The translations under genes were made by a program, and so were the position numbers. Positions 2-35,415 of a stretch of 51,420 bases of DNA are shown here, piece after piece. Source of the stretch: a virus; IMG/VR virus record IMGVR_UViG_3300046723_000326, positions 1 through 51,420 of that record. One strand, given 5' to 3'. The notes beneath the pieces are model-generated. The model was not told the DNA's origin. It searched no databases and saw only the letters and a list, made by a program, of their open reading frames with translations. Every line of letters starts with the position of its first letter. The stretch's first letter is position 1.

Positions 2-1921
2 AGTCAGACTTTAGATCGTTGGGCTACTCTGACGAATACCTGGATTGGATGGTCTGGCTCTTCACTCAAGTTCATACCATTGGGGGATACTGCGATTACG
101 GCGAACGGGGTGACATATACCCCGAATACGACGGTCCAGTATGCTTTAACTGAGGATGATTTCTTTCCAGGAAATGGCCCTCCGATTATCACCGAGCGTT
201 CTGATCCTGCAGATCGCCCTAATCATGTGAAATTGCAGGTAAAAGATCGTGTGAATGCGTACAACGTCGCATCTGTCGAGTGGCAAGATCAGGGTCTAGT
301 TGATCAGTTTGGGCGCGTAGACAATTCGGTCACAGATGCTTCTGAGATTTGTGATCTCACAGTTGGAAATCTTGTAGCTCAATTCATCGGTCAGCGTGGA
401 GCATACATCCCGAACACATACTCGTTCAAGTTGGGGTATGAATTAGGATCAGGTCTCGAGTTTGGAGATATCTGCACAATCCAGAGTGGAAAGTCTGGCA
501 TCCCTAATCCCATTTCTGTTCGCATTCGGACATTGGATGAGGACAACGCCGGAGCGTGGAGCATTCTAGCTGAGGGGATTGTGCAGGGTACAGGAACTGT
601 CGTTCCTGGGAATCAACCATCGAGTGATGGTGGGTTTATCGACACTCAGGTTGATCCTGGCGATGTCAATTTCCCGATGATTTTTGAACCAACGTCAGAC
701 TTGACAGCTGGAATTCCACAACTCTGGCTCGCTGCATCTGGTGGTCCGGACTGGGGTGGCGCAGTCGTCTACGTCAGTTTCGACGATATCACATACACCC
801 CGATGGGCGCCATCACATCACCAGCACTACAGGGTCATATCACAACGACCTTGGGTCCTCACAGTGATCCTGATCCTTCTGGAGCGTTCACTGCTGATCT
901 CACATTGAGTGATGGTATCATGGATACCACAGCAACTCATGCAGATGCTGACGCATTCCGGACATTAGTGCTGATCACAAACAATATCCCCGGATTTATT
1001 ATTCCTCATAATGGAGAGATGATCTCGTACGGTTCTGTGGCTCCTGGATCGGGATCATTTCTGTTCAATATCAGTTATCTACGTCGTGGACTATATGGAA
1101 CCACGATTGCCAATCATCCGGTGGGTAGCAACTTCTGCAGATTTGATCTAAATGCTGTAGAGGGACTTGGCAATTCTGTCTTCACATATTTGATTCCTTC
1201 TCAGTATATCGGAACAACCATCTACTTCAAACTCGCCAGCTTTAACTCCTTCGGAAATGCAGCACAGGATATCTCTCTTCTTAGTTCATACTCGTATGTC
1301 TCAAGTGGTGTCGGGTATGGACCTGTGAATGGTCTGCCTGCACAACCGACCGGATTTGCCGGATCTCCGAGTGCGAACGGTGCTCTGTTCTCGTGGACCG
1401 CCAATGCGGTCAACGATAATGTCGAGACGTATCAAATCTGGGGAGCCCTCGGGACTGGGACGGCGTTCGGCAGCACGTCTCTCATGTACACGACCAACAG
1501 TCTCAACTGTCTGGTGCCAAATCTCACAGCGAACACGGCCTACACGTTCTATCTCGTAGCTGTGAATTCTGTCGGATCGTCCACTCCTTCGGCATTACAG
1601 AATGTGACGACGGGCGCAGCTCCCATCACTGGTAGCAGCTATCGCGCCGTCACGTACAGCACGAGCCCGGTCACTCTTCTCAATTCGGACGCCTATGTCG
1701 ACATCACCAATACATTCGGTCCGAACCTTGTGGTTAAGATGCCCCCTGCACCGACGAGTGGTCAGCGCATTGTGCTGATGGATGCAGGCGGCAACGCTGG
1801 GACGAATACTATCCTGCTCAAGAACAATGCTGGATCGACGCAGCTCGACCAGATCATCGTTAATAGTGGTTGGACCAATCCAGAGATGTGGAATGGTTCG
1901 ACGTGGAGGCAGACGGCATGA
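2..1921 (+). CDS. Tail-tip/baseplate hub protein, 5'-truncated
   Basis: The reading frame is open from base 2 and no start is visible, so the gene begins upstream of the window; 639 codons remain. The first half resembles the putative phage tail proteins of the gpJ/gene-transfer-agent class (Phage-tail_3 type), for example a stretch on redefining coordinates and columns around VKDRVNAYNVASVEW and the GLEFGDIC segment. Residues about 440-536 form a fibronectin type III-like domain (starts near PAQPTGF, ends near ALQNVTTG). The C-terminal 100 residues look like a small beta domain. It likely forms the distal tail tip that carries the fibres. Its stop overlaps the start of the fibre gene by 4 bp, so the two are translationally coupled. 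Function by family resemblance; confidence is good for tail role, lower for exact position. Confidence 0.75.
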   Translation, partial: SQTLDRWATLTNTWIGWSGSSLKFIPLGDTAITANGVTYTPNTTVQYALTEDDFFPGNGPPIITERSDPADRPNHVKLQVKDRVNAYNVASVEWQDQGLVDQFGRVDNSVTDASEICDLTVGNLVAQFIGQRGAYIPNTYSFKLGYELGSGLEFGDICTIQSGKSGIPNPISVRIRTLDEDNAGAWSILAEGIVQGTGTVVPGNQPSSDGGFIDTQVDPGDVNFPMIFEPTSDLTAGIPQLWLAASGGPDWGGAVVYVSFDDITYTPMGAITSPALQGHITTTLGPHSDPDPSGAFTADLTLSDGIMDTTATHADADAFRTLVLITNNIPGFIIPHNGEMISYGSVAPGSGSFLFNISYLRRGLYGTTIANHPVGSNFCRFDLNAVEGLGNSVFTYLIPSQYIGTTIYFKLASFNSFGNAAQDISLLSSYSYVSSGVGYGPVNGLPAQPTGFAGSPSANGALFSWTANAVNDNVETYQIWGALGTGTAFGSTSLMYTTNSLNCLVPNLTANTAYTFYLVAVNSVGSSTPSALQNVTTGAAPITGSSYRAVTYSTSPVTLLNSDAYVDITNTFGPNLVVKMPPAPTSGQRIVLMDAGGNAGTNTILLKNNAGSTQLDQIIVNSGWTNPEMWNGSTWRQTA

Positions 1922-4900
1922 CAAAGAAAATCTGGCTGGTCGGGGCGTTCATGATATTGGCGACCCCGGTGTTCGGAGGAGGAGTTCCGAACCCCGCAAA
2001 CATCGATACCCTCCCCGGAAGCGGTCTGACGAATAATGACTTCGTCCTTGGAAGTTCGATCCAAGGATTGAAGGATGCCAGCTTCGCCACAGTCCCGGTC
2101 TCAAAGGGTGGAACCGGGCTGACATCTGGAACGTCCGGTGGTATCCTCGGGTTTACAGGTTCAACAACTCTTACCTCGAGCGCTGCACTGACCATCCACG
2201 CCATCACAATAGGCGGCGGGGCCGGGGCAACACCCTACCCTCTGGCGAGCCTTGGGAGTACTCATACGCTCCTCCACGGTGGCACGGGAGACCCTACGTG
2301 GGGTGCGGTGGACCTTGCCACGGAGACCACCGGGACACTTCCTGCTGGATCATGCCCGATCCCGACGGGAGTAACTCTCGGCTGCGTCTACGCACCGGCG
2401 AATCCACCAGCCGCGCACAACTGGCTGACAGGGTATAATGGAACGACGTGGCTCACAGCTCAGCCTGACTATACAGACATCACAGGATTGGGGACAGCCG
2501 CTACTCAGAATACTGGAACTTCAGGTGCCACAATCCCGATGCTCAACGGAGCTAACCAGTGGGGCGCTGATCAAATCTTTGCTCCTGGATCATGTTCTCT
2601 ACCGGGTGTGGCTCTCGGTTCTCCTGGAGATTCAGGATTTTTCAACTATGGTGTATCTGACGATATTGGTTTCTGCGCGGCGGCGCATCTGAGAGCAGTA
2701 TTCTATGGATCAACGAGTAATGCTCCTGTCGTTTTCGGGAATACAACGGCGAATGTAGTACCGACGAGTATCCTCGGTGGTAATAACGGGATTGAGAATA
2801 TCGGGACTGTGACACAGTACGGAGCGTACCGGGCGCTCTCGTTGAAGAATACCGCTGGTGGATCTCCGCTTATCGCTCTCTCACACTCGAGATCTGCAAC
2901 GAATGGATCATTCTCAGCACTCACCAGTGGTGATTTTCTCGGGTTTGTTTCCTTCGGTGGTGATGATGGAGCATCGTACGATACAACCGGAGCTACCATC
3001 GTCGCCATATCGAAAGGAACATGGACAGGTGGTGTCGGACCGTCCGATTTAATTCTCGGAGTGCAGAACAATGCGGGGGCGTTGGTGAAGGTCGCCTGTC
3101 TCGATGCAGATACAGGCTGGTGGAATGGGAGTGGTGGTGTATCAACCATATGCTCTGGATCAAATTTTCTTGATCGATCCAACAATGCGACATTCCTCAG
3201 TGCCGTCTTCGGTTCTCCCACCGGGGGGAACAAGGGTTCTGGAACAATCAATGCAACGACAATCTATCAGAATGGTACCGTACTCGCCACTATTGCGACG
3301 AGTGGTAGTGCGAGTGATCTGACGACTGGCACCGTCGCGGCTGCGCGGATGCCAGCCTACACCGGAGATGTGACATCTCCAGTCGGCACAACCGTCAACA
3401 CAGTTGCGAAGATACAGGGGACCACCGTCTCAGGAACGACTGGCTCCGGCAACGTCGTCTTCTCAGCCAGTCCAACATTCACTGGCACCATCACAGGTGC
3501 AAGCGTCGCATTCTCAGGTGCGGGCGGTACATGCACGAATCAGTTTGTTCGGATCATATCCACAGCTCTAATTCCGACATGCAACACGGTCAATCTTGCA
3601 TCTGACGTTACCGGAACTCTCCCATCAGGATCATTTGGTCCACTGACCGGAGACGTCACAACTTCTGGGTATGCGGCGACAGTTGCGAAGATACAGGGCA
3701 CCGTCGTCTCTGGAACGACCGGATCGACCAACGTCGCATTCTCAGCATCACCAACATTCACCGGCACAGTCCAGATGGCTGCGAGCCATTCCTCCGGCAG
3801 CTCGTTCATCGACGCTGACTTCTACTGGACTAACGACATTACACCCCCGCTCATCACAGCAAATCAGGACGACTATGCTCCAACTGGCAACGCGACGGCA
3901 GTCGTCTTTCGTCTCTCAGGTGATGTGACTCCTCGTACAATCACGGGATTGGCGGGAGGGGCCGACGGGCGTCTCGTCATGTTTATCAACGTGGGAGCAA
4001 ACAATCTGATTATTGCGACGGACAATATAGGATCATCTGCAGCCAACAGATTCCGTCTGGGAACGAGTACCGATATCACACTCACACCAGATGATACGAT
4101 GGTGTTTGAGTATGATGCTACAGTATCCAGATGGCGTTGGGTCAGTTCTCAGCTCCCCACACCTGGTCCTGCTCAATTAGGTGGTATCAACTCAGCACCA
4201 TGCACCGGAAGCAATTGGGTGAAGGGATATAACTCGACAGGATCGGCGACCTGCACTCAGCCAACCTATGGTGATATCTCCGGTCTCGGCACGGCTGCGA
4301 CTCAGAATACTGGAACATCTGGTGCGACGTTACCATTCCTCAATGGTGTGAATACGTGGTCGGCAGCGCAGACATTCAGTAATGGTGCGACGATCAACAG
4401 TGGTCTCACCCTCGGTACTCCTCTGACGGGAGCGAATGGTGGCACAAATAATGGATTCATGCAGTTCAGTGGCCCAGCATCAACACTGAAAACGTACACA
4501 CTTCCGAATTCTACCACTACTCTACTCTCACTTCTTGACATCAACGTAAATGTCGCACCGGCGACCAGTGGCTCCACAGTTCTTCTCGGAAATGGTACTG
4601 GTGGATTTGCGAACTATACTGGAGTGACGTGTACGGGCCAATTCATCAGAGCACTTAACTCTTCTGGTGGTGGATTGTGTGCCGCCGTCAGTCTTGTTGG
4701 GGACGTTTCTGGCATACTCCCGATCGCCAATGGTGGGACGAATGCGTCGACGACTTATGGCGCTCTGACAAGTCTCGGAGTTCCGCTGCACGACATACTG
4801 GAAAATCCATCATTCGACGTCTGGCAGGAGAATACCACCTATTCTCCGAATACAGGTGCAAATACATTCATCGCAGATCGATGGAAGGTTCGTACATTTA

Positions 4901-5772
4901 CAACGGCGACTAATGGATCGAGAACTTTCTCACAAGTTGCTGGTTACTCGGGAGCGCAGTTCGCACTGAAGATACAGAGAGCAGCGGCGAATGCTGAGAC
5001 AGCGCAGGCGACCGTTGGTCAGCAGATATACACCAAGGATTCAATCCCACTGCAGAGCACAACACTGCACCTCGCGTGTGATGTCAAGTGGGGAGCGAAT
5101 TATAGCCCCAATGGATTGAATGGTGTTCTATTCTCTGGTACAGGTATAGACGAGACAGTCAATCTGAATGGTGGGTTCGCCACTGGAGCGGCGTCAGCAA
5201 ATTTCTCGACAGTTCCAACTTCATCTGTTGGGAATACGACACATGCAGATTTTGGAACCGTGGCCGTTCCGTCAACCGAGACAGAACTTGCTGTGCGAAT
5301 TTCGACCAATACGTGGATCGGTACGGCTGGAGCGGATGATAGTGTATCCATCACCAACTGCAATCTCACCGTCGCAACGGGTGATGTCCCATATTCTAAG
5401 CCACAGTACGAGGTCGAGCTGCGTAACGCTCAGTTCACATATCGTAAATCTTTCACATATGCGACTGTTCCAGTTCAGAATGCTGGAGCACTGACAGGTG
5501 AATCTCTGTGGTCTGCCGGTGTCGCTGGAGCAGCCGCCGAGAAGTATTACGTCTTCTTCGGTAACACGATGCGTGCAGCACCAACGATCACATTCTATAA
5601 CCCGGCTGCTGCGAATGCGAATTGCCGGGATGAGACAGCGGCGGCGGATGGAGCGGCGGGAGCATCCAGCAATGTGTCGGAGAAAGGATTCTTCATCACG
5701 TGTAACGGCAACGCGGCGACAGCGGTCAACAATACGATGGGGATCCATTGGGTCGCTGACATTCGCCTTTAA
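1918..5772 (+). CDS. Tail fibre / receptor-binding protein with signal-peptide-like N-terminus
   Basis: A 1284-residue protein rich in Gly, Thr, Ser and Asn. I place the start at the ATG in the ATGA overlap with the upstream gene rather than at earlier in-frame codons. Residues 1-22 (MTKKIWLVGAF...FGGG) look like a classical secretion signal, unusual for a virion protein. The body holds duplicated fibre-like segments: GTAATQNTGTSGAT near residues 192 and 790, and GDVT...VAKIQGT.VSGTTGS...SPTFTGT near 482 and 577. From about residue 962 (ENPSFDVWQ ... FIADRWKV) the sequence matches a recurrent C-terminal carbohydrate-binding module of phage fibres, ending with a VELRNAQFTYRKSF segment typical of that class. 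Probable host receptor-binding protein. What the signal-like start does is unknown. Confidence 0.75.
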   Translation: MTKKIWLVGAFMILATPVFGGGVPNPANIDTLPGSGLTNNDFVLGSSIQGLKDASFATVPVSKGGTGLTSGTSGGILGFTGSTTLTSSAALTIHAITIGGGAGATPYPLASLGSTHTLLHGGTGDPTWGAVDLATETTGTLPAGSCPIPTGVTLGCVYAPANPPAAHNWLTGYNGTTWLTAQPDYTDITGLGTAATQNTGTSGATIPMLNGANQWGADQIFAPGSCSLPGVALGSPGDSGFFNYGVSDDIGFCAAAHLRAVFYGSTSNAPVVFGNTTANVVPTSILGGNNGIENIGTVTQYGAYRALSLKNTAGGSPLIALSHSRSATNGSFSALTSGDFLGFVSFGGDDGASYDTTGATIVAISKGTWTGGVGPSDLILGVQNNAGALVKVACLDADTGWWNGSGGVSTICSGSNFLDRSNNATFLSAVFGSPTGGNKGSGTINATTIYQNGTVLATIATSGSASDLTTGTVAAARMPAYTGDVTSPVGTTVNTVAKIQGTTVSGTTGSGNVVFSASPTFTGTITGASVAFSGAGGTCTNQFVRIISTALIPTCNTVNLASDVTGTLPSGSFGPLTGDVTTSGYAATVAKIQGTVVSGTTGSTNVAFSASPTFTGTVQMAASHSSGSSFIDADFYWTNDITPPLITANQDDYAPTGNATAVVFRLSGDVTPRTITGLAGGADGRLVMFINVGANNLIIATDNIGSSAANRFRLGTSTDITLTPDDTMVFEYDATVSRWRWVSSQLPTPGPAQLGGINSAPCTGSNWVKGYNSTGSATCTQPTYGDISGLGTAATQNTGTSGATLPFLNGVNTWSAAQTFSNGATINSGLTLGTPLTGANGGTNNGFMQFSGPASTLKTYTLPNSTTTLLSLLDINVNVAPATSGSTVLLGNGTGGFANYTGVTCTGQFIRALNSSGGGLCAAVSLVGDVSGILPIANGGTNASTTYGALTSLGVPLHDILENPSFDVWQENTTYSPNTGANTFIADRWKVRTFTTATNGSRTFSQVAGYSGAQFALKIQRAAANAETAQATVGQQIYTKDSIPLQSTTLHLACDVKWGANYSPNGLNGVLFSGTGIDETVNLNGGFATGAASANFSTVPTSSVGNTTHADFGTVAVPSTETELAVRISTNTWIGTAGADDSVSITNCNLTVATGDVPYSKPQYEVELRNAQFTYRKSFTYATVPVQNAGALTGESLWSAGVAGAAAEKYYVFFGNTMRAAPTITFYNPAAANANCRDETAAADGAAGASSNVSEKGFFITCNGNAATAVNNTMGIHWVADIRL

Positions 5773-25862: not shown

Positions 25863-26067
25863 TAACATCAATCCACAACCGAACCAGAGAGGGCCGCTGC
25901 GGAGGCTGTGCGACGGCAACGTCTACGGGCAGAAGTGCATGTTCCGTCCGTATGTGACGCGCGACGGTCTGGACTACTGTCGTATTCATGATCCAGACCC
26001 AGAGGTAGCGGCGCGGCGCGCTGAGATGTACAGGAGGAGACGTGGCAAAGTCATTCATAGTAACTGA
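25840..26067 (+). CDS. Small Cys/His protein
   Basis: 75 residues, overlapping the exonuclease gene by 23 bp. Two Cys early (LCDGNVYGQKC) and Cys-X2-His (CRIHDPDPE) suggest one zinc site. The C-terminus is very basic (RRAEMYRRRRGK). Unrecognised; could bind nucleic acid. Confidence 0.5.
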   Translation: MTVRHYYDNINPQPNQRGPLRRLCDGNVYGQKCMFRPYVTRDGLDYCRIHDPDPEVAARRAEMYRRRRGKVIHSN

Positions 26068-26305
26068 TCACGCGAGACAGTGCATCAGCGTAATCTGTCC
26101 TGACTGGAAGCCGTCTGGGTACAACGTCTGGACTAACGACGTAGGTGAGCAGATTCGTCTCGCTTCCAACATGGAGTGGCTCCGTGGTCACGCGCCCGGT
26201 ACAGTGATTTATCTCGGTTGGGGATGGCGATCAAAGGTGAGGCCACACGATCTCCTCGAGTTCCGAGCGCGGGGCTACGTGGTCGAGGAATTGAAGAATG
26301 ATTGA
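26042..26305 (+). CDS. Hypothetical protein
   Basis: 87 residues from GTG with AGGAGG upstream, overlapping the previous gene by 26 bp. A compact alpha/beta pattern, with WLRGHAPGTVIYLGWGW in the middle and a C-terminal LLEFRARGYVVEEL. No family recognised. Confidence 0.5.
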   Translation: MAKSFIVTDHARQCISVICPDWKPSGYNVWTNDVGEQIRLASNMEWLRGHAPGTVIYLGWGWRSKVRPHDLLEFRARGYVVEELKND

Positions 26306-26786
26306 CGGTGGTCTCCGAGCGCTGTTTCGGCAGCACCTCCCCGCCTATCACTGGGTCTCGATTGAGACAGGGGGAACGGGGAGGGGCATACCTGACTCGG
26401 AGTACTGCGTCGGAGGGATGACGGCGTGGGTGGAGTATAAGGTGACGGACGGATGGGCCGTGACCTTGCGGCCCGAGCAGGTGGCTTGGATGCTACGTAG
26501 GAGCCGCGCTGGAGGTCGGGTATGGGTCGTCGTGCGGCGCAAGGCAGCGGCGGGGCCAAGGCGCGGCGGAGCTGTGGATGAGCTCTGGATTTTGCGGGGC
26601 ATGTTCGCGGATGAGATCCGTGAACAAGGTCTACCAAAAATTCAGTTACTGGAGATTGGTACAGACATAGACGCAGAATTCCCGCAGCATCACTATGTCG
26701 TGCGCGCGTGGGCTGGTGGACCAGCTCGTTGGAGTTGGGATCATATCGATGTAATACTGAGGAGTGAACATGCCCAGAACACCTGA
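26298..26786 (+). CDS. PD-(D/E)XK (VRR-NUC-like) nuclease
   Basis: 162 residues. The core GRGIPDSEY then AWVEYKVTDGW and LRPEQVAWM is the nuclease pattern IPD...WVEYK...LRPEQ of VRR-NUC-type phage endonucleases. The active site would use the Asp of IPD and Glu-Tyr-Lys. Probably a structure-selective DNA nuclease (junction resolution or host DNA cleavage). Its end overlaps the next gene by 17 bp. Confidence 0.7.
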   Translation: MIDGGLRALFRQHLPAYHWVSIETGGTGRGIPDSEYCVGGMTAWVEYKVTDGWAVTLRPEQVAWMLRRSRAGGRVWVVVRRKAAAGPRRGGAVDELWILRGMFADEIREQGLPKIQLLEIGTDIDAEFPQHHYVVRAWAGGPARWSWDHIDVILRSEHAQNT

Positions 26787-27138
26787 AGGATTCGTGGGTG
26801 TGGCCGTATCAGGATACGACCACAGCGCGGCGGTCGCCCAGCACGCAGTCGCGATGGCTGAGGAGCGACGAATCAAGTTGTCGCCGTGGGTTGCACCACG
26901 GAAGAAGGTAGTGACGGGATACGTCCCCGTCACTAAAAAGAAGAAGTGCGTTCCGACTGGGAAGCACGCGCGCGATGCGGCTGAGTTCGAGAAGATACGT
27001 GAGCGGGTGTGCGAGTTATACTTCAAGGATGAGATGCGCATCACAGATATAGCGTCGCTGCTGGAGCTGAGACGGACCTACGTCAGCACGGTGGTCGAGC
27101 GTCAGCGACAGAAGATGAAGGGGAAACGTCGTGGCTGA
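26770..27138 (+). CDS. Helix-turn-helix DNA-binding protein
   Basis: 122 residues from ATG 26770 (GAGGA six bases upstream; a GTG two codons earlier is too close). A basic middle (VTKKKKCVPTGKHARD) precedes a helix-turn-helix: VCELYFKDEMRITDIASLLELRRTYV by position 77-102, sigma-region-4/LuxR-like. It lies near the end of the rightward block and could switch on late genes. Function is inferred. Confidence 0.55.
   Translation: MPRTPEGFVGVAVSGYDHSAAVAQHAVAMAEERRIKLSPWVAPRKKVVTGYVPVTKKKKCVPTGKHARDAAEFEKIRERVCELYFKDEMRITDIASLLELRRTYVSTVVERQRQKMKGKRRG
26910..26934. repeat. Perfect in-gene inverted repeat
   Basis: AGTGACGGG / CCCGTCACT, 9-bp arms, 7-base loop, in the helix-turn-helix gene. Confidence 0.65.
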
Positions 27139-27532
27139 GAACTATCCTCTATGCACACGACGAAAGGTCGTCGTGCGCAAAGTTCCTGACGGTACGCGCG
27201 AGTTTGAAGGGGTGTGTTTCGGTGACTTGGCAGTCGGGAGACGAACAGGATCTGCCGACTATACCATCTTCCACGTGCCGAGTGGCTTCGCGCTGGCAGG
27301 GGCGGGAGCGGTGTTTCGGTATGAGCACATGGCGGTGAAGGCTATGATGGATTTATCCAAGATAAAGAACCGCTGGATATTCGACGACATTGAGGAATTT
27401 CGTACGCTGAAACTTGCGATTCAGACCGTGTGCGCCGTGAATGGTGGAGTAGAGGCCGCGCCGCACACTCTGCGAGCTGTCGATGAGTTCCGACAGAATC
27501 TAAACGGCTATGGCGCTCCAGACGACCTGTAA
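27131..27532 (+). CDS. Hypothetical protein, last gene of rightward early block
   Basis: 133 residues from a GTG overlapping the previous gene by 8 bp. Beta-rich first half (KVVVRKVPDGTREFEGVCFGD) and a helical second half. Not recognised. Downstream, a weak hairpin CCCA-TGGG before CTTTTT (27533-27557) and CTGCCAGT/ACTGGCAG (27559-27594) lie in the 100-bp convergent gap. Confidence 0.5.
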   Translation: MAENYPLCTRRKVVVRKVPDGTREFEGVCFGDLAVGRRTGSADYTIFHVPSGFALAGAGAVFRYEHMAVKAMMDLSKIKNRWIFDDIEEFRTLKLAIQTVCAVNGGVEAAPHTLRAVDEFRQNLNGYGAPDDL

Positions 27533-27631
27533 CCCATTGGTTTTATTGGGCTTTTTACTCTGCCAGTTGTGCTGGCCTACGCGCCTCACTGGCAGGCGGG
27601 TTTGTGGCCCATAGCCACATACCCGGCACAT

Positions 27632-27675
27632 TTCAAACGACCGTGTGCGGGGTCCCTGTGGGGCCTGTTTTTGTC
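27632..27675 (+). repeat. Repeated terminator-like block, copy 2
   Basis: Same arrangement as 10028-10072: TTCAAACGA, TGTGCGG, hairpin GGTCCC-TGT-GGGGCC (27651-27665) with one wobble pair, then GTTTTTGTC. It follows the rightward early block, so it would serve as its terminator, and at the same time it encodes the last 13 residues of the leftward gene that ends here. Confidence 0.6.
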
Positions 27676-27884
27676 GCAGCGGCGGCAAATTGCCGTCTAG
27701 CGGCGCGCAGTATCCTCATAACACATTGATGGACTCGTAGGCGTCCTGTTGGAGTGTTGGAGCCGAATACATCGCGTGAGTAACCTGAGAGATTGCTCAG
27801 CACTTCGTCCGGGCCGAACCCATCAGTCATCATAAGTTTGATGACTGAGGCTTCGATCCGGTCACGGTGTGCGTTCGTGTTCAC
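27633..27884 (-). CDS. Hypothetical small protein, last gene of leftward block
   Basis: 83 residues from GTG with AGGAGG five bases upstream and a GTGA overlap with the regulator gene, good evidence for a real gene. Helical, with IEASVIKLMMTDGF and VHQCVMRILRAARRQF. Its last residues (TKTGPTGTPHTVV) resemble the minus-strand reading at 10028-10072. Function unknown; may assist the regulator it is coupled to. Confidence 0.6.
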   Translation of the reverse strand: MNTNAHRDRIEASVIKLMMTDGFGPDEVLSNLSGYSRDVFGSNTPTGRLRVHQCVMRILRAARRQFAAAATKTGPTGTPHTVV

Positions 27885-28189
27885 GCTGCCTCCTGAAGCA
27901 TGTAGCCGAAGGTCTTCTTCATATCGATCAGAATGCTGATGGTTGCCAGCTTCGGGCGCAGCCGGGAGATATGAACGGCGATCGCATTGTGGTCGATGTC
28001 TTCCCGACCATACATCTCCATGCAGAGTTGCTGGTACGTCACCCGCTTGTTGAACTTGATATGACTCAGTACCTTGGCCTCGGTGCGGCTGATCTCGACC
28101 GAGTGACCTCTCCAGTGGGCGGAGTAGTCGGTGATCAGCAACTCCTCACTTGGAGGGATTTCCTGATTGCATGTGGGGCAGTTCATCAT
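27881..28189 (-). CDS. Winged-helix transcription regulator with zinc knuckle
   Basis: 102 residues with GGAG five bases upstream. CPTCNQEI at the N-terminus is half of a zinc site. Residues 33-98 follow the OmpR/PhoB-type winged helix: VEISRTEAKVLSHI, then QLCMEMYGREDIDHNAIAVHISRLRPKL, and the wing FGYML. No receiver domain, so it acts as a stand-alone DNA binder, probably of phage promoters. Confidence 0.75.
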   Translation of the reverse strand: MMNCPTCNQEIPPSEELLITDYSAHWRGHSVEISRTEAKVLSHIKFNKRVTYQQLCMEMYGREDIDHNAIAVHISRLRPKLATISILIDMKKTFGYMLQEAA

Positions 28190-28392
28190 TTTATCTCCAT
28201 AAGAAGGGTGACGTTCTTGATCATGATTTTCTGGGCGCTGTGATAGTTTTTGGTGATTGTTGATGCTTGAGTCTTTGTTTGAGCATAGACGAGCATCGCA
28301 TCATGCTTATCGTAGTATCCTCCTTCCGTTACCTGATCCGCATGTTGATAACCTCCGTTCTTGATTTTGAATGCAACTCGGTAAGCATTCAT
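28186..28392 (-). CDS. Hypothetical small protein
   Basis: 68 residues, ATGA-coupled on both sides. Begins with two strands (YRVAFKIKNGGYQHADQVTEGG) and ends in a helix and strand. Basic. Not recognised. Confidence 0.5.
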   Translation of the reverse strand: MNAYRVAFKIKNGGYQHADQVTEGGYYDKHDAMLVYAQTKTQASTITKNYHSAQKIMIKNVTLLMEIK

Positions 28393-29123
28393 CGTAATTG
28401 ATTCCTTCCTGTCTGTGTACCGACCTGCGGTCTTAGGCTGACGCTGTTGGCGGCGTGAGCGCCGGCGATGGAGTGGTGGTTGAACGACGATCCTGCGCGC
28501 TTGGTGAACTTGAGACTGAACTTCTCCTTGGCGTGGTCTTCACAGAGTTGCAGTTCAGTTCTATACAGTGCTGGCAAATTCGACGAGTTCACGGAGGGTG
28601 AACTCATGGGCTTGGTCTGTTCCTGGAACATCTCGCGTATGCGGACTGCGAGGCGCTCGCCACACCCCCGCTCGAAACCCAGACGCAGAGCGCGCGGTGA
28701 GTCGTCGGACATGTGAGCCTCGCGCTCTGCGTATTGCCGAGCCAGACGCAGCGTGGTCTTCTCGAGGTAGTCGTACATATCACGGCAGGAGGCGACGTTG
28801 TGTGGCCGACCGACGACCATTCGTCCCGTTCTGAATTTTCCCTTCACGGAAAACTCGGACCTGAAAGAATAGCAGAAGTACAGCTTCTCGATCGCGCGGA
28901 ACAGATTCATGCGCCACGGATCGGAGTACATCATCGGGAATTCTTGATGCTCGACCGGGTCGTCGCGCTCGGCCTCAGGTACGTCGGCCATGGACAGACC
29001 ATGCTCGGCCAACAGTGCTTGGACCTTCGATGCGAAGGCGAGTGCCTCCGCCTCCGTGACGCCGCTGTCCTCCGCCATAGCGTGCAGCTTCCGGATCTTT
29101 TCAAGCAGCGCATCATTCTTCAT
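28389..29123 (-). CDS. DUF2786-type protein
   Basis: 244 residues from ATG 29123 with GAGGAG upstream. The N-terminal 40 residues (LLEKIRKLHAMAEDSGVTEAEALAFASKVQALLAEHGL) carry the DUF2786 pattern KI.KL...A....EAE.A..K...L; stated here by pattern rather than residue run. The central part has a conserved WRMNLFRAIEKLYF...VVGRPHNV. Common in phages and plasmids; function unknown. Confidence 0.7.
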   Translation of the reverse strand: MKNDALLEKIRKLHAMAEDSGVTEAEALAFASKVQALLAEHGLSMADVPEAERDDPVEHQEFPMMYSDPWRMNLFRAIEKLYFCYSFRSEFSVKGKFRTGRMVVGRPHNVASCRDMYDYLEKTTLRLARQYAEREAHMSDDSPRALRLGFERGCGERLAVRIREMFQEQTKPMSSPSVNSSNLPALYRTELQLCEDHAKEKFSLKFTKRAGSSFNHHSIAGAHAANSVSLRPQVGTQTGRNQLR

Positions 29124-29538
29124 GATACGCTCCTCGCATAGCGACGGACCAGTCGACCTCGCCGGTCTCAATGAGTTTGGCGACGACGTCTGCGGCTCGC
29201 TCCGGAGTAATCTTCCTCCACTTATTTAATGGAATTTCATAGTCGCTGTTGGTCGAATGCATCCAGAATAGTGCATGTGATCGGAGACCAAGCAAATCGG
29301 CAGCATTTTCACGATCACCCATGTTACAACCATCACCGAACAGGAGATTGGTCAGTCCGACAATGCAGCCCGCCGATCCACAGTGTTGAACGGTGAACCC
29401 GGATTTGTTATATCCGGTGACATATGGAGTAATCGAGTCTGACTCATTCCAGAATTGGTTCATGTCGAGAACAAACTTCTCTGGAAAGTTACGCGTCCGG
29501 AGCGTCTGCTCTAGTATCTTCAGTCTTGGGATATTCAT
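29113..29538 (-). CDS. Conserved phage protein of the FDM..W....CGT..C..G type
   Basis: 141 residues from ATG 29538 with AGGAGA upstream. FVLDMNQFWN followed by QHCGSAGCIVGLTNLLFG resembles a widespread small phage family whose core is FdM..W.....CGT.aCi.G. The C-terminal part is helical with TPERAADVVAKLIETGE. Function unknown. First gene after the 29.57-kb promoter. Confidence 0.55.
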   Translation of the reverse strand: MNIPRLKILEQTLRTRNFPEKFVLDMNQFWNESDSITPYVTGYNKSGFTVQHCGSAGCIVGLTNLLFGDGCNMGDRENAADLLGLRSHALFWMHSTNSDYEIPLNKWRKITPERAADVVAKLIETGEVDWSVAMRGAYHEE

Positions 29539-29562
29539 GGTTTCTCCTGTCATTGTAACAAC

Positions 29563-29592
29563 AGTGTAACATAGGTGGACAGGGTCAGGCAA
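29563..29592 (-). promoter_or_regulatory. Leftward promoter, TTGCCT-18-TACACT
   Basis: Read leftward: TTGCCT (29592-29587), 18-bp spacer, TACACT (29568-29563), 25 bp before the start of the 141-aa gene. Identical hexamers and spacing occur at 43099-43128. Confidence 0.6.
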
Positions 29593-29595
29593 GCC

Positions 29596-29619
29596 ATCAC
29601 GTCCTACTTAGGACGTGAT
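29596..29619. repeat. Perfect 10-bp hairpin at a gene end
   Basis: ATCACGTCCT / AGGACGTGAT with loop ACTT, at the 3' end of the 63-aa gene, just upstream of the leftward promoter. No T-run on either side, so not a standard terminator. Confidence 0.75.
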
Positions 29620-29795
29620 AGTTTGTGTGTTTTCCTGCGTTCTGCTCTGGACCTATTGTCGATGAACACCTCGACGAAGTCTGCGTCACACCACTTGATG
29701 AGACCGCGCCTCGGAAGATTCTTATCTTCCGAGACTACGGGAACGATATCATCTACCCGAAAGGTATGACCTGGACGATATAGACGGAGTATCAT
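29604..29795 (-). CDS. Hypothetical protein coupled to sulfatase
   Basis: 63 residues starting in the ATGA overlap with the sulfatase stop; there is no separate ribosome site. Begins MILRLYRPGHTFRVDD and is beta-rich with a very basic end (RSRAERRKTHKLSRPK). Real status is likely because of the coupling but not certain. Confidence 0.45.
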   Translation of the reverse strand: MILRLYRPGHTFRVDDIVPVVSEDKNLPRRGLIKWCDADFVEVFIDNRSRAERRKTHKLSRPK

Positions 29796-31177
29796 CTGTG
29801 CGGAGGAGGTGGGAAGTTGCCGGAGATGGAGCAGGTACTCTCCGAGCATCCCTGCAACGTGGTGAGCGTGGCGTCGAGCTGAGCCTGCGCTGCCGCGTAT
29901 CTTGGATCACCGGCGAAGTTGGTGGTCTGGTATGGATCATTCTTTATGTCGAAGAGTTCGATGTATCCGTGGTTGAACCACTTCACGTATGAGTAGTACA
30001 GCGTTCGGACACCGGCGCTGAACCGACACTGACCGAGCGTCGCAGTGTTCCACGAGCCACCAGTCTGGAATAGAAGAGGAGTGAGCGACCGACCGTCACG
30101 CATCCATCCAGTGACGCCGAGCAACTCTGCAATGGCGGCAGTCGTGTCAATGTTGCTGATGACATTGGCATTCCCCATGATGGAAACGCCGGGGCCGCGC
30201 CAGAACATCGGTAGACGCCAGCTCTCCTCGTACAGCACACCCTTACCATCATTCAGACAGTGCTCGCCCTGCTGGAACCCGTTGTCGCTGGTAAAGATGA
30301 CGTGGGTATTCTCGAGGATTCCTAACGTCGCGAGATCTGCAAAGATGCGGGCGATGCTACGATCGACCGCCTGCAACGTCTCGATTCGCAGCGCCCACGT
30401 ATTCTTGAGAATTGTGATGTCGTCTGCCGTCAGCGTGGGATTGACCTTGAACCCGTTGATAATGTTGACGTTGAAGCTCGGAAAGTTCTGATCCGGGAAC
30501 AACTCCGGGTCGATCGTGCCTGCGTCCTGCGTTGCGGGGACACACGGACCGTGACAGGCGTTCGGCCAGTACTCGATGTAGAACGGCTTCCCCGACGCCG
30601 CGCCCATCGCGATCTGTGCGCGGACCTTTGTGTCGAGCACGTCCGTGATATAGTTGGAATCACCCTCTCCGTATGAGATGATGTCACCATTCTCCATCAG
30701 GGTGTAGTCGTAGTACCGCTCGAAACTACCGATGATGCCGCGAAAGTCGTCGTATCCATCAGGCTGCGGATCTCCTGACATGAAACCGTTGATGTACTTT
30801 CCGGTATGTCCTACCCACACCCCGGAGGACTGTGCCATCGCCGGCAGAGCGCTGGGTATCTGAGGTGCGAATGTGTCGTACGCACCGTCGTTGGTGAGTA
30901 CACCATGATTGTGGGCCTGCAACCCGGATAGAATACTGACACGAGACGGAGCGCAGATCGTGAATGGCGTGACGTGATTGGTGAACTTCATCCCAGCGTT
31001 ACGCAGCAGAATCTTCGTTTGCATCATATAGTTGACGTCGAGCGGCACAGCGTCGTCGACAACAATACGGATGATGTTTGGTCGCGGATCGACACTGCGC
31101 CGAGCTGACGCAGGAAAGATACTCAGGCCGGTCATAGTTCCAGCTCCGATAAGTAGGCTACGACGATTGATCTTCAT
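29792..31177 (-). CDS. Secreted sulfatase with Tat-like signal
   Basis: 461 residues with AAGGAGAAG upstream. Residues 1-25 form a twin-arginine signal (NRRSLLIG, hydrophobic core, ASA cleavage site). The sulfatase fold follows: metal ligands Asp41-Asp42, the formylglycine motif C-x-P-S-R at 75-79 (CAPSRVSILSG), GHTGKY at 123-128, His209 in HGP, SDNG at 297-300 and GEH at 304-306. All catalytic landmarks are present, so it should hydrolyse a sulfate ester after Cys75 maturation by a host enzyme. A complete Tat-exported sulfatase in an early phage operon is unusual. It may strip sulfated polysaccharide or serve the host. Neighbours give no hint of substrate. Confidence 0.9.
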   Translation of the reverse strand: MKINRRSLLIGAGTMTGLSIFPASARRSVDPRPNIIRIVVDDAVPLDVNYMMQTKILLRNAGMKFTNHVTPFTICAPSRVSILSGLQAHNHGVLTNDGAYDTFAPQIPSALPAMAQSSGVWVGHTGKYINGFMSGDPQPDGYDDFRGIIGSFERYYDYTLMENGDIISYGEGDSNYITDVLDTKVRAQIAMGAASGKPFYIEYWPNACHGPCVPATQDAGTIDPELFPDQNFPSFNVNIINGFKVNPTLTADDITILKNTWALRIETLQAVDRSIARIFADLATLGILENTHVIFTSDNGFQQGEHCLNDGKGVLYEESWRLPMFWRGPGVSIMGNANVISNIDTTAAIAELLGVTGWMRDGRSLTPLLFQTGGSWNTATLGQCRFSAGVRTLYYSYVKWFNHGYIELFDIKNDPYQTTNFAGDPRYAAAQAQLDATLTTLQGCSESTCSISGNFPPPPHR

Positions 31178-31178
31178 C

Positions 31179-32195
31179 TTACTTCTCCTTCTGTTGCACT
31201 GTGGTGAGAGCGGCGCGGTCTATGCGCTCGATTTCTGCGACGATTAACGCAGCCGCTTTGATGAGGTTGCGGCGCTTGTTCGTAGGTCTCCACCACTCTT
31301 TAGACCACGGCCAATACCGTCGCACATAGTCATCAGTCCAAGTCGAGTAATATCGGCCAGCCATTGCGTAACAAGCCGCAGCAAGCGCCATTTCGCCGTC
31401 GCTATGCCCGTCGTCATGCTCGACTGTCCACCGCTCCACTTCGATCTGGCGTTTGCGCTCGTCGGCAACATCCCGCAGCGCGTCCTCTGGCTTGGGGGGT
31501 GGGGTGGTGGCTTCAATTTCCTCAAATCGGCCGTCCTCAAATTCTGCTTTGCGGCGAACCCATAAGCCGCTTTCGTCATTGAGTGGCCCGACCTCAGCGC
31601 GATAGACTGTGACTACCTCATATTCAGTTAGTGGTGACGCACATTGAATCTGCGCCTCTCCGATTAACCGATAAGTGGTTCCGCGTTTCTTGTGCCGGAA
31701 CCGACGCACGCCGCCCCCTTCCTCCGACCGTGGCTGCGCTATGTCTGGCGGGGCTTCGTATGGGCGAGGCGAATCACATTCCGGGCAAGGCTGCGGATGA
31801 AGCGACGACCAGCCATGCTCGCAAATGGTCTGCGCTGTGGCGGGTGGTGGTGCGGAGGAAAGGGCGCCGATAGCTTCTACAATTTGCTCCGCCGTGGCGC
31901 GAGCGGCCCACCCAGCGGTCGCGCCATAATGCTTTGTGTCAAGCGTCGTGCTTTCAGCAATTGCTTTCGCTTCCGCAAACGCCTCCCGCTTGCCTTCCTC
32001 GCGGATGGCATCGAGTTTGTTCATCAGCCTGTAGATTTCGCGTCCTGCCGCTACCTGCTGTTCGACGCGCAGCGCCTCAGTCTCCTCAAATGCAATATCC
32101 ATCGCCGCGCCGATGCGGTCCTCGACCGATGCGTCGTTGGGCAGGGCGTTGTAGGCCGCGATGCCGTGCTGTATTCGGATTGCTCGTGTGCTCAT
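31179..32195 (-). CDS. Conserved phage protein, two-domain
   Basis: 338 residues with AAGGAGA upstream. N-terminal helical region (1-115), a CEHGWSS...CPECDSP zinc-like segment near 125, a beta domain (RHKKRGTTYRLIGEAQIQ...LWVRRKAEF) and a C-terminal module (ADERKRQIEVERWTVEHDDGH...GEMALAAACYA...WPW...RRNLIKAAALIVAEIERIDR, read by pattern) common in phages and prophages of proteobacteria. Function unknown. The stop lies 1 bp from the sulfatase start, so they share an operon. Confidence 0.65.
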   Translation of the reverse strand: MSTRAIRIQHGIAAYNALPNDASVEDRIGAAMDIAFEETEALRVEQQVAAGREIYRLMNKLDAIREEGKREAFAEAKAIAESTTLDTKHYGATAGWAARATAEQIVEAIGALSSAPPPATAQTICEHGWSSLHPQPCPECDSPRPYEAPPDIAQPRSEEGGGVRRFRHKKRGTTYRLIGEAQIQCASPLTEYEVVTVYRAEVGPLNDESGLWVRRKAEFEDGRFEEIEATTPPPKPEDALRDVADERKRQIEVERWTVEHDDGHSDGEMALAAACYAMAGRYYSTWTDDYVRRYWPWSKEWWRPTNKRRNLIKAAALIVAEIERIDRAALTTVQQKEK

Positions 32196-32530
32196 TTCTT
32201 TCTCTCCTTCTCTCTCTTCAGTTCATCGATCTGGTTCTGTAGCTCTATATTGGTCTTACCGGCATTGCCTAGACGTGACATGAGGTCGTTGATCTGTTTG
32301 CCGAGCACATCACTCCCTTCCCCTTCGCTGATCTTCTCTTGGACCTTCTTACCGACAACATATCCCATCAACCCAGTGCATATGCTCATGATCAAATCGT
32401 GCAGCGTATCTCCTGCGCCGGTCCCGAGGTGACCGTTTAGAGATGCGATGAACGCACCGACCACAATGATCACTGCGATGAGCATGAGACCACCGACTAT
32501 GATGATCTCCACAATGTCATCCTTGCTCAT
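32192..32530 (-). CDS. Membrane protein with coiled-coil tail
   Basis: 112 residues. Two hydrophobic helices (about 9-30 and 42-60), then a heptad-rich region ending ELQNQIDELKREKERKK. ATGA overlap downstream, 14-bp overlap upstream. May form an envelope-associated complex; not recognised. Confidence 0.55.
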   Translation of the reverse strand: MSKDDIVEIIIVGGLMLIAVIIVVGAFIASLNGHLGTGAGDTLHDLIMSICTGLMGYVVGKKVQEKISEGEGSDVLGKQINDLMSRLGNAGKTNIELQNQIDELKREKERKK

Positions 32531-32897
32531 GCGATAGCTCCTTCGGTGATAGTGCCTCGAAGATGTTGTGATTGATCTTTCTGACCAGACCGTCCTCGAC
32601 CAGTCGGTTCAGTGCTGCGACAACCTCAATACGAGATGGGGATGAACGACCGCGCTCGTGCAGAGACTGCAACGCCGACAAGCGCTCATTCTCCCGCATC
32701 ACGGCACGATCTATCGCGTGTAGGTCGCAGCGGGCACCTATCAATTCGCCAATCTCAGACCTGACGGTCTGGGATCGACGGGCTGCGCGAAGAGCGGGGA
32801 GGAGCGCGGCACGTTGTCCGAAGGATAACGTATCGATGTAGGACAGGAGCTGGTCGGTCAAGCCACGCACTCCGCCGCTGTATTCTTCTCGATCCAC
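32517..32897 (-). CDS. Hypothetical helical protein
   Basis: 126 residues from a GTG start (AAGG four bases upstream); a GTG nine codons in is an alternative. Helical throughout, C-terminus IEVVAALNRLVEDGLVRKINHNIFEAL looks like a winged-helix. May bind DNA. Function unknown. Confidence 0.45.
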   Translation of the reverse strand: MDREEYSGGVRGLTDQLLSYIDTLSFGQRAALLPALRAARRSQTVRSEIGELIGARCDLHAIDRAVMRENERLSALQSLHERGRSSPSRIEVVAALNRLVEDGLVRKINHNIFEALSPKELSHEQG

Positions 32898-33094
32898 GCG
32901 CCTTCAATCTTCTTCATCCACTTTCCCTCCATGGGGAACCACGTCCAGCCAGCGGCTCTCGCATCACTAGCTGGGACGATTGATGGTAGACCTCTCAGTT
33001 TCTGAACCTCATTCAACCATCGAAGTTCGTCTACCTTGTCGCCATCTTGTCTGGCAAGACCAGCCATCTCGTACGCGCGGTCGATCTTGTTCAT
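32858..33094 (-). CDS. Hypothetical small protein
   Basis: 78 residues, overlapping the next gene by 40 bp and coupled by ATGA to the previous one. N-terminal helix (DRAYEMAGLARQDGD...RWLNEVQKLRG) and a Trp-rich end (GWTWFPMEGKWMKK). Not recognised. Confidence 0.45.
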   Translation of the reverse strand: MNKIDRAYEMAGLARQDGDKVDELRWLNEVQKLRGLPSIVPASDARAAGWTWFPMEGKWMKKIEGAWIEKNTAAECVA

Positions 33095-33357
33095 GTCTTG
33101 ACCTTCCGCATGGCGACGACCTTGTCGTCGTGGGCTTGGAGCAGGGCGCGGTCCCGCCGCTGTCTCATGGTTTGTTTGTGACGCTTCATGAACTCAGCCA
33201 GTCTCACCAGACGGCGGGGTGCAAGCACGGCCACGGTCAGACCGCCGCCGCTCAGTGAAGTTCTGAGCAGGCTCGTGTCCTCCTCGTTGAGAGCAGACAG
33301 GACGACGGTGCGCGGGCCGAAGCTGGTGGGGAAGCGGACGAGTAGGCGGATGGTCAT
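33091..33357 (-). CDS. Hypothetical protein
   Basis: 88 residues from ATG 33357 with GGAGGG upstream. Beta-rich start (MTIRLLVRFPTSFGPRTVVLSAL) and a strongly basic helical end. Not recognised. Confidence 0.5.
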   Translation of the reverse strand: MTIRLLVRFPTSFGPRTVVLSALNEEDTSLLRTSLSGGGLTVAVLAPRRLVRLAEFMKRHKQTMRQRRDRALLQAHDDKVVAMRKVKT

Positions 33358-33581
33358 GATTCTGTACCCTCCATGTAGGCGACCTGCGTCTTGGTCGCGA
33401 TGCGCAGGTGATCGCGGTGAATGCGCTGGAACGGGCCATCTGCACCGAACTGTACCTCGTAGTGTCGGCCCTGCCGCAAGCGGACGAGACCCACCCTGGA
33501 GGTTGATGGATGAAAGACCCACCAGTCGCGCTCGTACGCCGGAAGCTCGTCGTTACACTCGGTGTAGGGCCAAGTGATCAT
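33354..33581 (-). CDS. Hypothetical protein
   Basis: 75 residues, coupled at both ends. Aromatic and charged (ERDWWVFHPSTSRVGLVRLRQGRHYEVQF by position 17-45), probably a small beta fold. Not recognised. Confidence 0.45.
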   Translation of the reverse strand: MITWPYTECNDELPAYERDWWVFHPSTSRVGLVRLRQGRHYEVQFGADGPFQRIHRDHLRIATKTQVAYMEGTES

Positions 33582-33766
33582 GATCGCGCCTTAGCGATCG
33601 TGACGTACTCGGCCATTATTTTCCGGGCCTTGGTGAGTTTCGAGGCCAGCACGAGTTCTCGCATTGCTCGAGCTCGTGCTGGGTCGATCTTATTCAGCAC
33701 CGCGCCGGCGATGGCGAGTTGCTCGATCAGGTTGTCTGAGTGAGAGACCGTAGGTTTGATCGTCAC
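33578..33766 (-). CDS. Hypothetical helical protein
   Basis: 62 residues from GTG with a GTGA overlap. Almost entirely helical and basic (ARARAMRELVLASKLTKARK). Coupled to the helix-turn-helix regulator gene. Not recognised. Confidence 0.45.
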   Translation of the reverse strand: MTIKPTVSHSDNLIEQLAIAGAVLNKIDPARARAMRELVLASKLTKARKIMAEYVTIAKARS

Positions 33767-33996
33767 AACCAGATCCCCCTCATCAGATGCTTCGGCGTAG
33801 TGCCGAAGGCGCGAGCCAACATCTCGACATGATGGAGCAGAAAGCGATGTCTTCCTGTCTCCATATTCGCGATTGTTCCTCGCGTCCAGATGGTGCGCTG
33901 TCTCAGTTCCTCCTGTGAGAGACCGAGTAGCTCACGCATCTGCTGCACCTTCGCACCTAGCTGACGATGGCACGGCTCGAGTTCGGGGCGGCTCAC
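33763..33996 (-). CDS. XRE/Cro-like helix-turn-helix regulator
   Basis: 77 residues from GTG with AAGGAG six bases upstream. LGAKVQQMRELLGLSQEELRQRT gives the first helices (positions 13-35), GTIANMETGRH the recognition helix, and VEMLARAFG the last helices, the standard XRE fold. Small enough to be a Cro/cI-type switch protein of the early block. Confidence 0.8.
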   Translation of the reverse strand: MSRPELEPCHRQLGAKVQQMRELLGLSQEELRQRTIWTRGTIANMETGRHRFLLHHVEMLARAFGTTPKHLMRGIWL

Positions 33997-34460
33997 TTCT
34001 TTCTCCTTCCGAGGATGTAGTCCGGGCGACGCTGCGCGTTGGGAGGGCAGACGGCGAGGATTCGCCAGCCATCATCCAGCTTGTCCTGCAAGGTGTCAGT
34101 GCAGGCGTCGTCCATGTGGGTCACCTCGTCGATGTATAGAAGGCCGAGGTCTGGTATGGTGATCTGCACACGGTCGCTGAATTGATGGACGTTGCCTCGG
34201 GATTGCTGCTCGACCTGATCGATCCGGTTCTGCAATTTGACCAGCATCGTATTCTGGTCGCTAGTCTCGTGGATCTCGAGCACGAGCTTGAATTTGGCGG
34301 CGGCGCGCAGACCATCATCGTCTACGAGGAACGTGCCGTACTCGGCATCTCGCTTTTTCTCGGGAAGTACGGGGATGGCGACGCGAAGTTCAGCGTACTG
34401 CTCGTCGGTCAGCTCCTTCCACGCGGAGCCATAGCTCTGGAATTGGACAGATAGGATCAT
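33993..34460 (-). CDS. Hypothetical protein
   Basis: 155 residues from ATG 34460 inside the ATGA overlap with the 32-aa membrane protein; the frame upstream of this is only a shadow. Beta-rich first half and a C-terminal helical region (LDDGWRILAVCPPNAQRRPDYILGRRKK by position 127-155). Not recognised. Confidence 0.5.
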   Translation of the reverse strand: MILSVQFQSYGSAWKELTDEQYAELRVAIPVLPEKKRDAEYGTFLVDDDGLRAAAKFKLVLEIHETSDQNTMLVKLQNRIDQVEQQSRGNVHQFSDRVQITIPDLGLLYIDEVTHMDDACTDTLQDKLDDGWRILAVCPPNAQRRPDYILGRRKK

Positions 34461-34555
34461 CTCCACCACCCGCGCCTGTAGCCGTGGAAGCCGAAGATGG
34501 CTCCAACGATGCCGATGGCAGCCATGATGAGATGGTAGATCACGAACGAGCTCAT
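34457..34555 (-). CDS. 32-residue membrane micro-protein
   Basis: ATG 34555 has GGGAGGA upstream and the stop overlaps the next gene's ATG, so it is very likely translated. One hydrophobic helix (VIYHLIMAAIGIVGAIFGF) followed by HGYRRGWWR. Possibly a lysis, immunity or membrane-stress peptide. Confidence 0.6.
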   Translation of the reverse strand: MSSFVIYHLIMAAIGIVGAIFGFHGYRRGWWR

Positions 34556-34824
34556 CTGCGTCCTCCCTCGACGAATACGTGCCAGACCAATTGGTGGTCG
34601 TTGGTGAGCACGGTGCCGACGTGCTGGTAGGAGTGGGACGGTGCCTCGTGTCCCGTGCCGCTGATGATGACCGGGTAGCGCCAAGGGTCCTCGGCTGTAT
34701 CACATCGATACCAGATGCACAGATCACCGTGCTGAAACGCCGCGTGGAGAAACTCCGTGTGGCGAGGAGCGCTGATGAATTGTGAGTCGACCAGCGCGAG
34801 CTGCCGCTTGTGGACAGTGATCAT
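34552..34824 (-). CDS. DUF7352-type phage protein
   Basis: 90 residues. VHKRQLALVDSQFISAP, FLHAAFQHGDLCIWY and VIISGTGHEA follow the pattern of a small phage family (VDsQ....P.....L.v..Q.g.l.lW......v.GTGh). A beta-sandwich-like small protein of unknown role. Overlaps the 32-aa gene by 4 bp. Confidence 0.6.
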   Translation of the reverse strand: MITVHKRQLALVDSQFISAPRHTEFLHAAFQHGDLCIWYRCDTAEDPWRYPVIISGTGHEAPSHSYQHVGTVLTNDHQLVWHVFVEGGRR

Positions 34825-35000
34825 GCCGGGTCCTCCGGCAGCCAGTCCTCCACGAACTTCTCCTCGTCGTTGTAGTCCTCGGAGCCGGAGAAGGCGTTGA
34901 ATGTCGTAGCGATGTGATAGTCGCTGTAGCGCGCGACGCGTGCGCCGAACTTGTGACGGATATTGCTGACGATTTGCTGATCACCTGTGCTGAGGGGCAT
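34821..35000 (-). CDS. Hypothetical small protein
   Basis: 59 residues from ATG 35000 with CAGGAGAG upstream; a longer frame upstream covers the promoter and is not favoured. Begins MPLSTGDQQIVSNIRHKFG and ends acidic (DYNDEEKFVEDWLPEDPA). First gene after a leftward promoter. Confidence 0.5.
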   Translation of the reverse strand: MPLSTGDQQIVSNIRHKFGARVARYSDYHIATTFNAFSGSEDYNDEEKFVEDWLPEDPA

Positions 35001-35026
35001 GAGTACTCTCCTGCAATGTTGGGTTA

Positions 35027-35056
35027 AGGTTACACTAGGTAGATGGGGGATGTAAA
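35027..35056 (-). promoter_or_regulatory. Leftward promoter, TTTACA-18-TAACCT
   Basis: Read leftward: TTTACA (35056-35051), 18-bp spacer, TAACCT (35032-35027). TTTACATCC is shared with the promoters at 38030-38059 and 41022-41051. Weak -10. Confidence 0.45.
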
Positions 35057-35376: not shown

Positions 35377-35379
35377 TGC

Positions 35380-35415
35380 GATCGCTTCCCGAATTGAGAA
35401 ATTCAGGAAGCGATC
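35380..35415. repeat. Large hairpin at gene start
   Basis: Arms of 16 bp with one mismatch (GATCGCTTCCCGAATT / AATTCAGGAAGCGATC), loop GAGA, ending four bases from ATG 35376. In the mRNA it would hide the ribosome-binding stretch, so it may control translation. Confidence 0.75.

Follow-up and report, generated by a model that had tools for sequence, protein, structure and literature searches.

A putative host-exported carbohydrate sulfatase encoded within a bacteriophage genome

The window (the whole stretch of DNA analysed here, a virus record of 51,420 bp) encodes a terminase, portal, tail protein, helicases, primase, DNA polymerase, exonuclease and endolysin, and also a sulfatase that, judging from its sequence and modelled structure, is most likely a carbohydrate sulfatase matured and exported by the host. 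We favour the reading, with a probability of about 0.55, that this is an S1 (formylglycine) carbohydrate sulfatase that would be matured by the host, exported through the Tat system and freed at lysis to strip sulfate from polysaccharide. The enzyme family is well known; its phage home is unusually well supported, and there are several independent relatives. No paper on a phage sulfatase was found in the open literature, the scope of a search that took in few subscription journals.

The sulfatase gene and its active site

The gene is transcribed leftwards, and its active-site residues can be placed as follows.

29792..31177, minus strand: type I (formylglycine) sulfatase, 461 aa, a single ORF with its ATG at 31177 and its stop at 29792
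31052..31057, minus strand: metal-site residues D41-D42, invariant in a five-sequence alignment
30941..30955, minus strand: formylglycine motif C75-A-P-S-R79, from the five-sequence alignment, with C75 and R79 also invariant in eleven viral sequences
30797..30799, minus strand: K127 of GHTGKY, from cellular and viral alignments
30551..30553, minus strand: H209 of HGP, from cellular and viral alignments
30281..30286, minus strand: D298-N299 of SDNG, from cellular and viral alignments
30242..30244, minus strand: K312, the usual last active-site lysine, from cellular and viral alignments

The plus strand has stops throughout 29792-31177. The ORF matches PF00884 (Sulfatase) with E 1.2e-30 and 107.3 bits, the cut-off being 25 bits, a Pfam search matches its C-terminal part to SGSH_C, and phrog_19870, a PHROG with no assigned function, matches at 3.6e-28. 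The preliminary description had listed the DD, C-x-P-S-R, GHTGKY, HGP and SDNG landmarks of a complete sulfatase; every one is present on the minus strand, and K312 can be added to them. Comparison with four cellular relatives (28-35% identity) shows that D41, D42, C75, P77, R79, K127, H209, D298, N299 and K312 are invariant, and all of these except P77 are also invariant across the eleven viral sequences; conservation of catalytic residues at about 30% identity is a mark of selection for activity. With a PF00884 score above cut-off, the C-x-P-x-R motif with the DD, K, H, D-N and K set, and the sulfatase fold of the alkaline phosphatase superfamily, the protein has the defining features of an S1 (formylglycine) sulfatase. 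There are two departures from the classic sulfatase signatures, with S replacing T after CxPSRxxIL and GKYIN replacing GKWH, and these count against the favoured reading.

Predicted structure and enzyme class

The AlphaFold model of the sulfatase (mean pLDDT 92.5, pTM 0.91, from a 46-row alignment) has as its closest solved structure by VIA-align the S1_25 sulfatase module of Formosa agariphila FA22250 (6hr5; Z 46.4, rmsd 1.9, 357 residues), followed by the BT4656 GlcNAc-6-sulfatase (5g2v; Z 41.1), with many other carbohydrate sulfatases close behind; the single best structure is thus an S1_25 member, with several S1_11 and other structures near it. These two enzymes have the fold in common with the phage protein over residues 31-449, with the same active-site layout, and both are exported carbohydrate enzymes, as the phage sulfatase is predicted to be. 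However, they are encoded by bacterial genomes and are only 26-27% identical to it over the structural alignment, and 5g2v has SGPSR where the phage protein has CAPSR. The top fold matches in BFVD are sulfatase-domain proteins of giant viruses (Satyrvirus, Yasminevirus and Tetraselmis virus 1), although these viruses infect eukaryotes and the proteins are 15-17% identical to the phage sulfatase; at E <= 0.001 this search returned giant viruses only and no phage protein.

The same superfamily includes phosphate and phosphonate ester hydrolases, and the protein could be one of these and not a sulfatase: its best NCBIfam model is PehA, a phosphoric/sulfuric ester hydrolase, PF01663 matches the ORF too, and the formylglycine phosphonate hydrolases have the same fold (2vqr, Z 36.2). 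The PehA score of 84.7 bits nevertheless falls far below the cut-off of 900 for membership, and the carbohydrate sulfatases match the structure better (Z 46.4 and 41.1 against 36.2). Phosphonate hydrolases have a D-H pair whereas sulfatases have a D-N pair and the GK lysine, and the phage protein fits the sulfatase pattern at both. We consider a hydrolase of this kind improbable, and sequence and model together point to sulfatase activity as very probable.

A predicted twin-arginine leader

31103..31177, minus strand: Tat-like leader, residues 1-25, with NRRSLL, a hydrophobic core and an ASA cleavage site, from sequence and a rule-based scan

Residues 1-25 are MKINRRSLLIGAGTMTGLSIFPASA, followed by RR. 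A twin-arginine leader had been described previously and is borne out both by the sequence and by a scripted rule (RR, a hydrophobic residue at +3, and 13 uncharged residues) that picks out the sulfatase alone among 85 greedy ORFs in the window, and two of 42 cellular relatives. The twin-arginine motif, uncharged core and AxA site are those of a Tat substrate, and the leader is disordered in the AlphaFold model (pLDDT about 48-75). Export of the sulfatase is highly probable on these features, with Tat the probable route.

Gene neighbourhood

The sulfatase is one of a series of small minus-strand genes lying opposite the replication genes, with the following immediate neighbours.

31185..31190, minus strand: AAGGAG ribosome-binding site of the sulfatase, from sequence
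31179..32195, minus strand: upstream coupled gene, a 338 aa phage protein (PHROG match to phrog_9434 and others)
29604..29849, minus strand: small downstream ORF, 81 aa, overlapping the 3' end of the sulfatase

The TAA stop of the upstream gene (31181-31179) is one base from the sulfatase ATG. The 81 aa downstream ORF has no PHROG match, and just beyond it there is a perfect hairpin with a 10-bp stem (window 29596-29619). The interval 26500-45400 has 8 consensus promoters where chance gives 7.6 and 8 consensus terminators where chance gives 13.2, numbers at the chance level or under it, so that no transcription unit is proved there; the earlier placement of the gene in an early operon is plausible and stays putative.

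A second phage record

A second IMG/VR record (IMGVR_UViG_3300046516_000835; 63,964 bp) carries a 100% identical sulfatase in the same place. It matches window positions 1-36835 at 99.2-99.98% identity (the lowest value being for a 243-bp piece) and positions 41811-51420 at 99.97%, and has about 10.4 kb of additional tail genes joining the two ends of the window. The record has the same 127 bp at both of its own ends, an exact overlap of the kind expected from a closed circular assembly, and is therefore probably complete, although IMG/VR does not class it so. Just upstream of the sulfatase it contains about 1.44 kb more than the window (L001 5816-7258; window 31208), with two further genes between the 338 aa gene and the sulfatase, and this segment finishes on the codons that also precede the sulfatase in the window; the two records thus represent different strains or assemblies. 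The shared gene ends around the segment suggest a recombination deletion in the window. Between about 36709 and 41810 the window appears to have a variable accessory region, most of which aligns to the second record at 89-99% with part unalignable.

Neither record has a match to PF00589 (tyrosine) or PF00239 (serine) integrases, one of the marks by which a temperate phage with a lysogenic-conversion gene would be recognised. A DNA polymerase scan for close phage relatives returned only the second record and one 21% match, and no named phage has a near DNA match to window 25000-45000.

The preliminary description had named chimeric host DNA as the finding that would undo it, and the gene could in principle be misassembled or passing host sequence, as it has no near phage relative besides the second record and its nearest kin are cellular (among the best 80 of 510 matches). 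We reject this, at a probability that is close to negligible. The second record has the identical sulfatase in the same phage context and yet differs by the 1.44-kb indel and a stretch at 89% elsewhere; the gene is spaced from and coupled to the upstream phage gene; and its codon use is phage-like, both GC3 (0.695) and codon distance (0.085) falling within the values of the phage core genes (codon distance 0.060-0.125 for 13 genes). Moreover, none of the best 80 of 510 cellular matches is near enough to be a source. The sulfatase lies within a verified phage genome, as is required of an accessory (AMG or moron) gene.

Maturation and host

The formylglycine motif cysteine must be converted for activity, and we searched for a phage-supplied maturase. 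The second record has no formylglycine-generating enzyme (FGE, PF03781) in a search that detected one in 4 of 14 control genomes and among the 17 viral records in 2, and neither it nor the window has an anaerobic maturase (anSME, TIGR03942 rSAM). The window does have a radical-SAM gene (16149-17093, plus strand), which is a homologue of RlmN/Cfr-like rRNA methyltransferases lying far below the family cut-offs, and we discount it as a maturase. As neither known maturase was found in the phage, conversion of the cysteine would fall to the host, and dependence on host maturation is quite probable. FGE has been reported in Pseudoalteromonas phages (PMC10232697).

Tail genes in the additional stretch of the second record match phiJL001 Gp84, BR0599, DUF2460 and NlpC/P60, a set that is known from gene transfer agents and from alphaproteobacterial phages. 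The host is likely to be a diderm, and probably proteobacterial, on the strength of this module.

Relatives and phylogeny

The nearest cellular sequences are about 30-35% identical and come from Thermoactinospora, Nonomuraea, Rubrobacter, a Fischerella plasmid and others; these are the best 80 of 510 matches, and a closer relative may exist. The sulfatases of Actinomycetota (Nonomuraea, Thermoactinospora and Rubrobacter) and of the cyanobacterial Fischerella plasmid are 31-35% identical to the phage copy and share GKY-[LI]-NG and a C-terminal cysteine pair with it. They are host genes, and several contain additional segments midway along the protein.

Degenerate-pattern scans of 2.9 million IMG/VR contigs, which give lower bounds, identified sulfatases in at least 16 others (L096-L111), with none added by a second scan, and all 17 viral records, counting the second record, pass the Pfam cut-off. 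Head, tail or packaging genes accompany the sulfatase in half of the 16 contigs (G003, G004, G006, G008, G009, G011, G012 and G016), three have replication-type or DNA-modification genes only (G002, G007 and G014), and no phage gene was detected in the remaining five (G005, G010, G013, G015 and G017). In G017 an FGE adjoins the sulfatase, and this contig could be host DNA. The viral sulfatases are 23-32% identical to that of the window and their contexts vary, including a tail gene run, head genes and DNA metabolism. At least one copy is inside a tail gene run: the L100 sulfatase is flanked on one side by a tail-fibre region and on the other by a minor head/tail gene, with which it shares a strand and a 14-bp overlap.

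Leader-bearing phage sulfatases had been thought rare, and this does not hold among the viral copies. Inspection by eye shows a hydrophobic or lipoprotein-like leader on at least 7 of 12 viral N-termini (L096, L097, L098, L100, L102, L107 and L108) and none on L101, L103 and L105; none of the leaders seen has the RR motif.

The tree contains 55 rows, of which 13 are viral and 42 cellular. Twelve of the 16 other contigs are represented, L104 being omitted because of a stop and L109, L110 and L111 for short or partial matches; the cellular rows are 38 of the listed 80 and four from a plasmid collection, with L029 and L030 omitted for stops in the matched stretch and others for size. A single branch with 100/100 support unites 26 rows, of which 11 are viral (11 of the 13, including the window) and 15 cellular, and the viral clustering there is partly built in, because the window sulfatase led the queries used to collect the viral sequences. 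Viral and cellular labels change eight times on the best tree and at least four times by the starred branches. A single clade of the 11 viral rows is rejected (p-AU 0.00025, for a group chosen after the tree was seen and with long branches in play), and more than one acquisition is therefore likely. A phylogeny had been proposed for finding the bacterial source, and it does not yield one: the window sulfatase has no resolved sister and the longest end branch in the tree (1.64 changes per site).

In a tblastn search of 50,697 phage records with four sulfatase queries, the window sulfatase matched five records at E <= 1e-5, each a fecal scaffold lacking annotation; at E <= 5 the number rose to 33. 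Neighbouring genes were inspected for four matches, all of which look cellular or prophage-flanking, and a named phage among the other matches may still be a carrier. MT835799 has five sulfatase ORFs and other glycan-type genes among cellular-looking neighbours; Campylobacter phage A11a (MG065691), marked UNVERIFIED, has bacterial-chromosome-like neighbours, presumably resembling the E. coli yidJ region; Acinetobacter phage MD-2021a has chromosomal gene names around its sulfatase; and Klebsiella ST512-KPC3phi13.3 has a sulfatase-like 'phosphatase' and an anaerobic maturase at a prophage edge. The first three of these are filed as phages and look like pieces of bacterial chromosome around the sulfatase genes. 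A 447,763-bp IMG/VR contig (L012) has a sulfatase at its extreme end and a partial FGE domain at 364501-364959, and long table-11 ORFs are sparse in the part that was inspected.

Possible roles

In the favoured reading, the host FGE would convert C75 to formylglycine in the cytoplasm, the folded sulfatase would be exported to the periplasm by the host Tat system, and sulfate esters on sugars would be hydrolysed there. Less certainly than these steps, the enzyme might be set free at lysis along with a tail depolymerase-like protein, and sulfate might be stripped from host or biofilm polysaccharide such that progeny could spread. The candidate partner is a large protein of the tail region.

1921..5772, plus strand: large tail-region protein, possible partner of the sulfatase, matching PF25692 (Phage_depo_C) at 24.3 bits against a cut-off of 25 (E 4.3e-5)

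This protein has no PDB sequence match, and with its depolymerase domain below threshold a joint attack on sulfated polysaccharide is a guess, if a fair one. About 24 kb separate the sulfatase from the tail genes in the window, so the gene order does not itself point to a joint role. Phage contigs of the L100 type, with the sulfatase beside tail genes, count in favour of release and dispersal. As a role for the enzyme we place lysis and dispersal first among three, as a possibility well short of even odds.

The second, the supply of sulfate and carbon suggested in the preliminary description, we regard as doubtful too, but nearly as likely as the first. As an auxiliary metabolic gene product, the exported enzyme would free sulfate and make sugars digestible, feeding the infected cell. 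Such scavenging fits export to the periplasm, and the L096, L101 and L108 sulfatases are positioned among DNA-metabolism genes, not tail genes. An open-access review lists sulfatase, in passing, among viral auxiliary metabolic genes of deep groundwater (PMC10029852). However, a scan of the window ORFs, some small ones excepted, revealed none recognisable as serving sulfate transport or assimilation, and the location of some phage relatives in or beside structural genes suggests roles outside metabolism.

Minus-strand runs of small genes such as that containing the sulfatase are a usual place for host-takeover genes, and this location would suit a block to superinfection, also raised previously, in which sulfate is removed from the phage's own surface receptor and later phages fail to adsorb. 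In a diderm host, though, Tat export stops at the periplasm and does not reach the outer surface, making a surface block before lysis the least direct of the three roles, and the sulfated receptor that it calls for is purely hypothetical. We consider it unlikely.

Release at lysis would give the sulfatase a target like that of phage tail depolymerases, which also act on surface polysaccharide. The depolymerases, in contrast, are virion parts that cut the chain, whereas the sulfatase is a separate, leader-bearing hydrolase of sulfate esters. Similar genes in several unrelated viruses raise the prospect that some viruses may strip sulfate from the coats or surroundings of their hosts. Sulfate shields polysaccharides from most enzymes. 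By removing it, a phage could gain access to hosts that are concealed in sulfated slime, or get away from them, or could make otherwise inaccessible sulfur and carbon available as food while it infects. As the sulfatase would need a host formylglycine-generating enzyme, the fitness of the phage would hinge on a trait of its host. A bolder and rather doubtful reading is that sulfatases are recurrent and hardly described weapons of tailed phages, acquired several times from bacteria, some exported through host pathways and others leaderless in tail or head operons, which would act with depolymerases in opening sulfated capsules, slimes, and algal or marine polysaccharides. A further interest of phage sulfatases would lie in providing new enzymes for sulfated glycans, and with intact copies in several unrelated phages the question of their role is directly testable.

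Other features of the genome

The window has three closely placed plus-strand genes of note.

17178-18191, plus strand: 5-hmdU DNA kinase domain (PF18723, 1.5e-33)
18876-19688, plus strand: TET-associated glycosyltransferase (PF20691, 3.5e-22)
20249-21298, plus strand: thymidylate-synthase homologue

The cluster from 17178 to 21298 is likely to be a thymidine hypermodification cassette. Finally, a 62-bp sequence is present twice in inverted orientation (window 10212-10273 and 41138-41199), the copies being 84% identical and about 31 kb apart.
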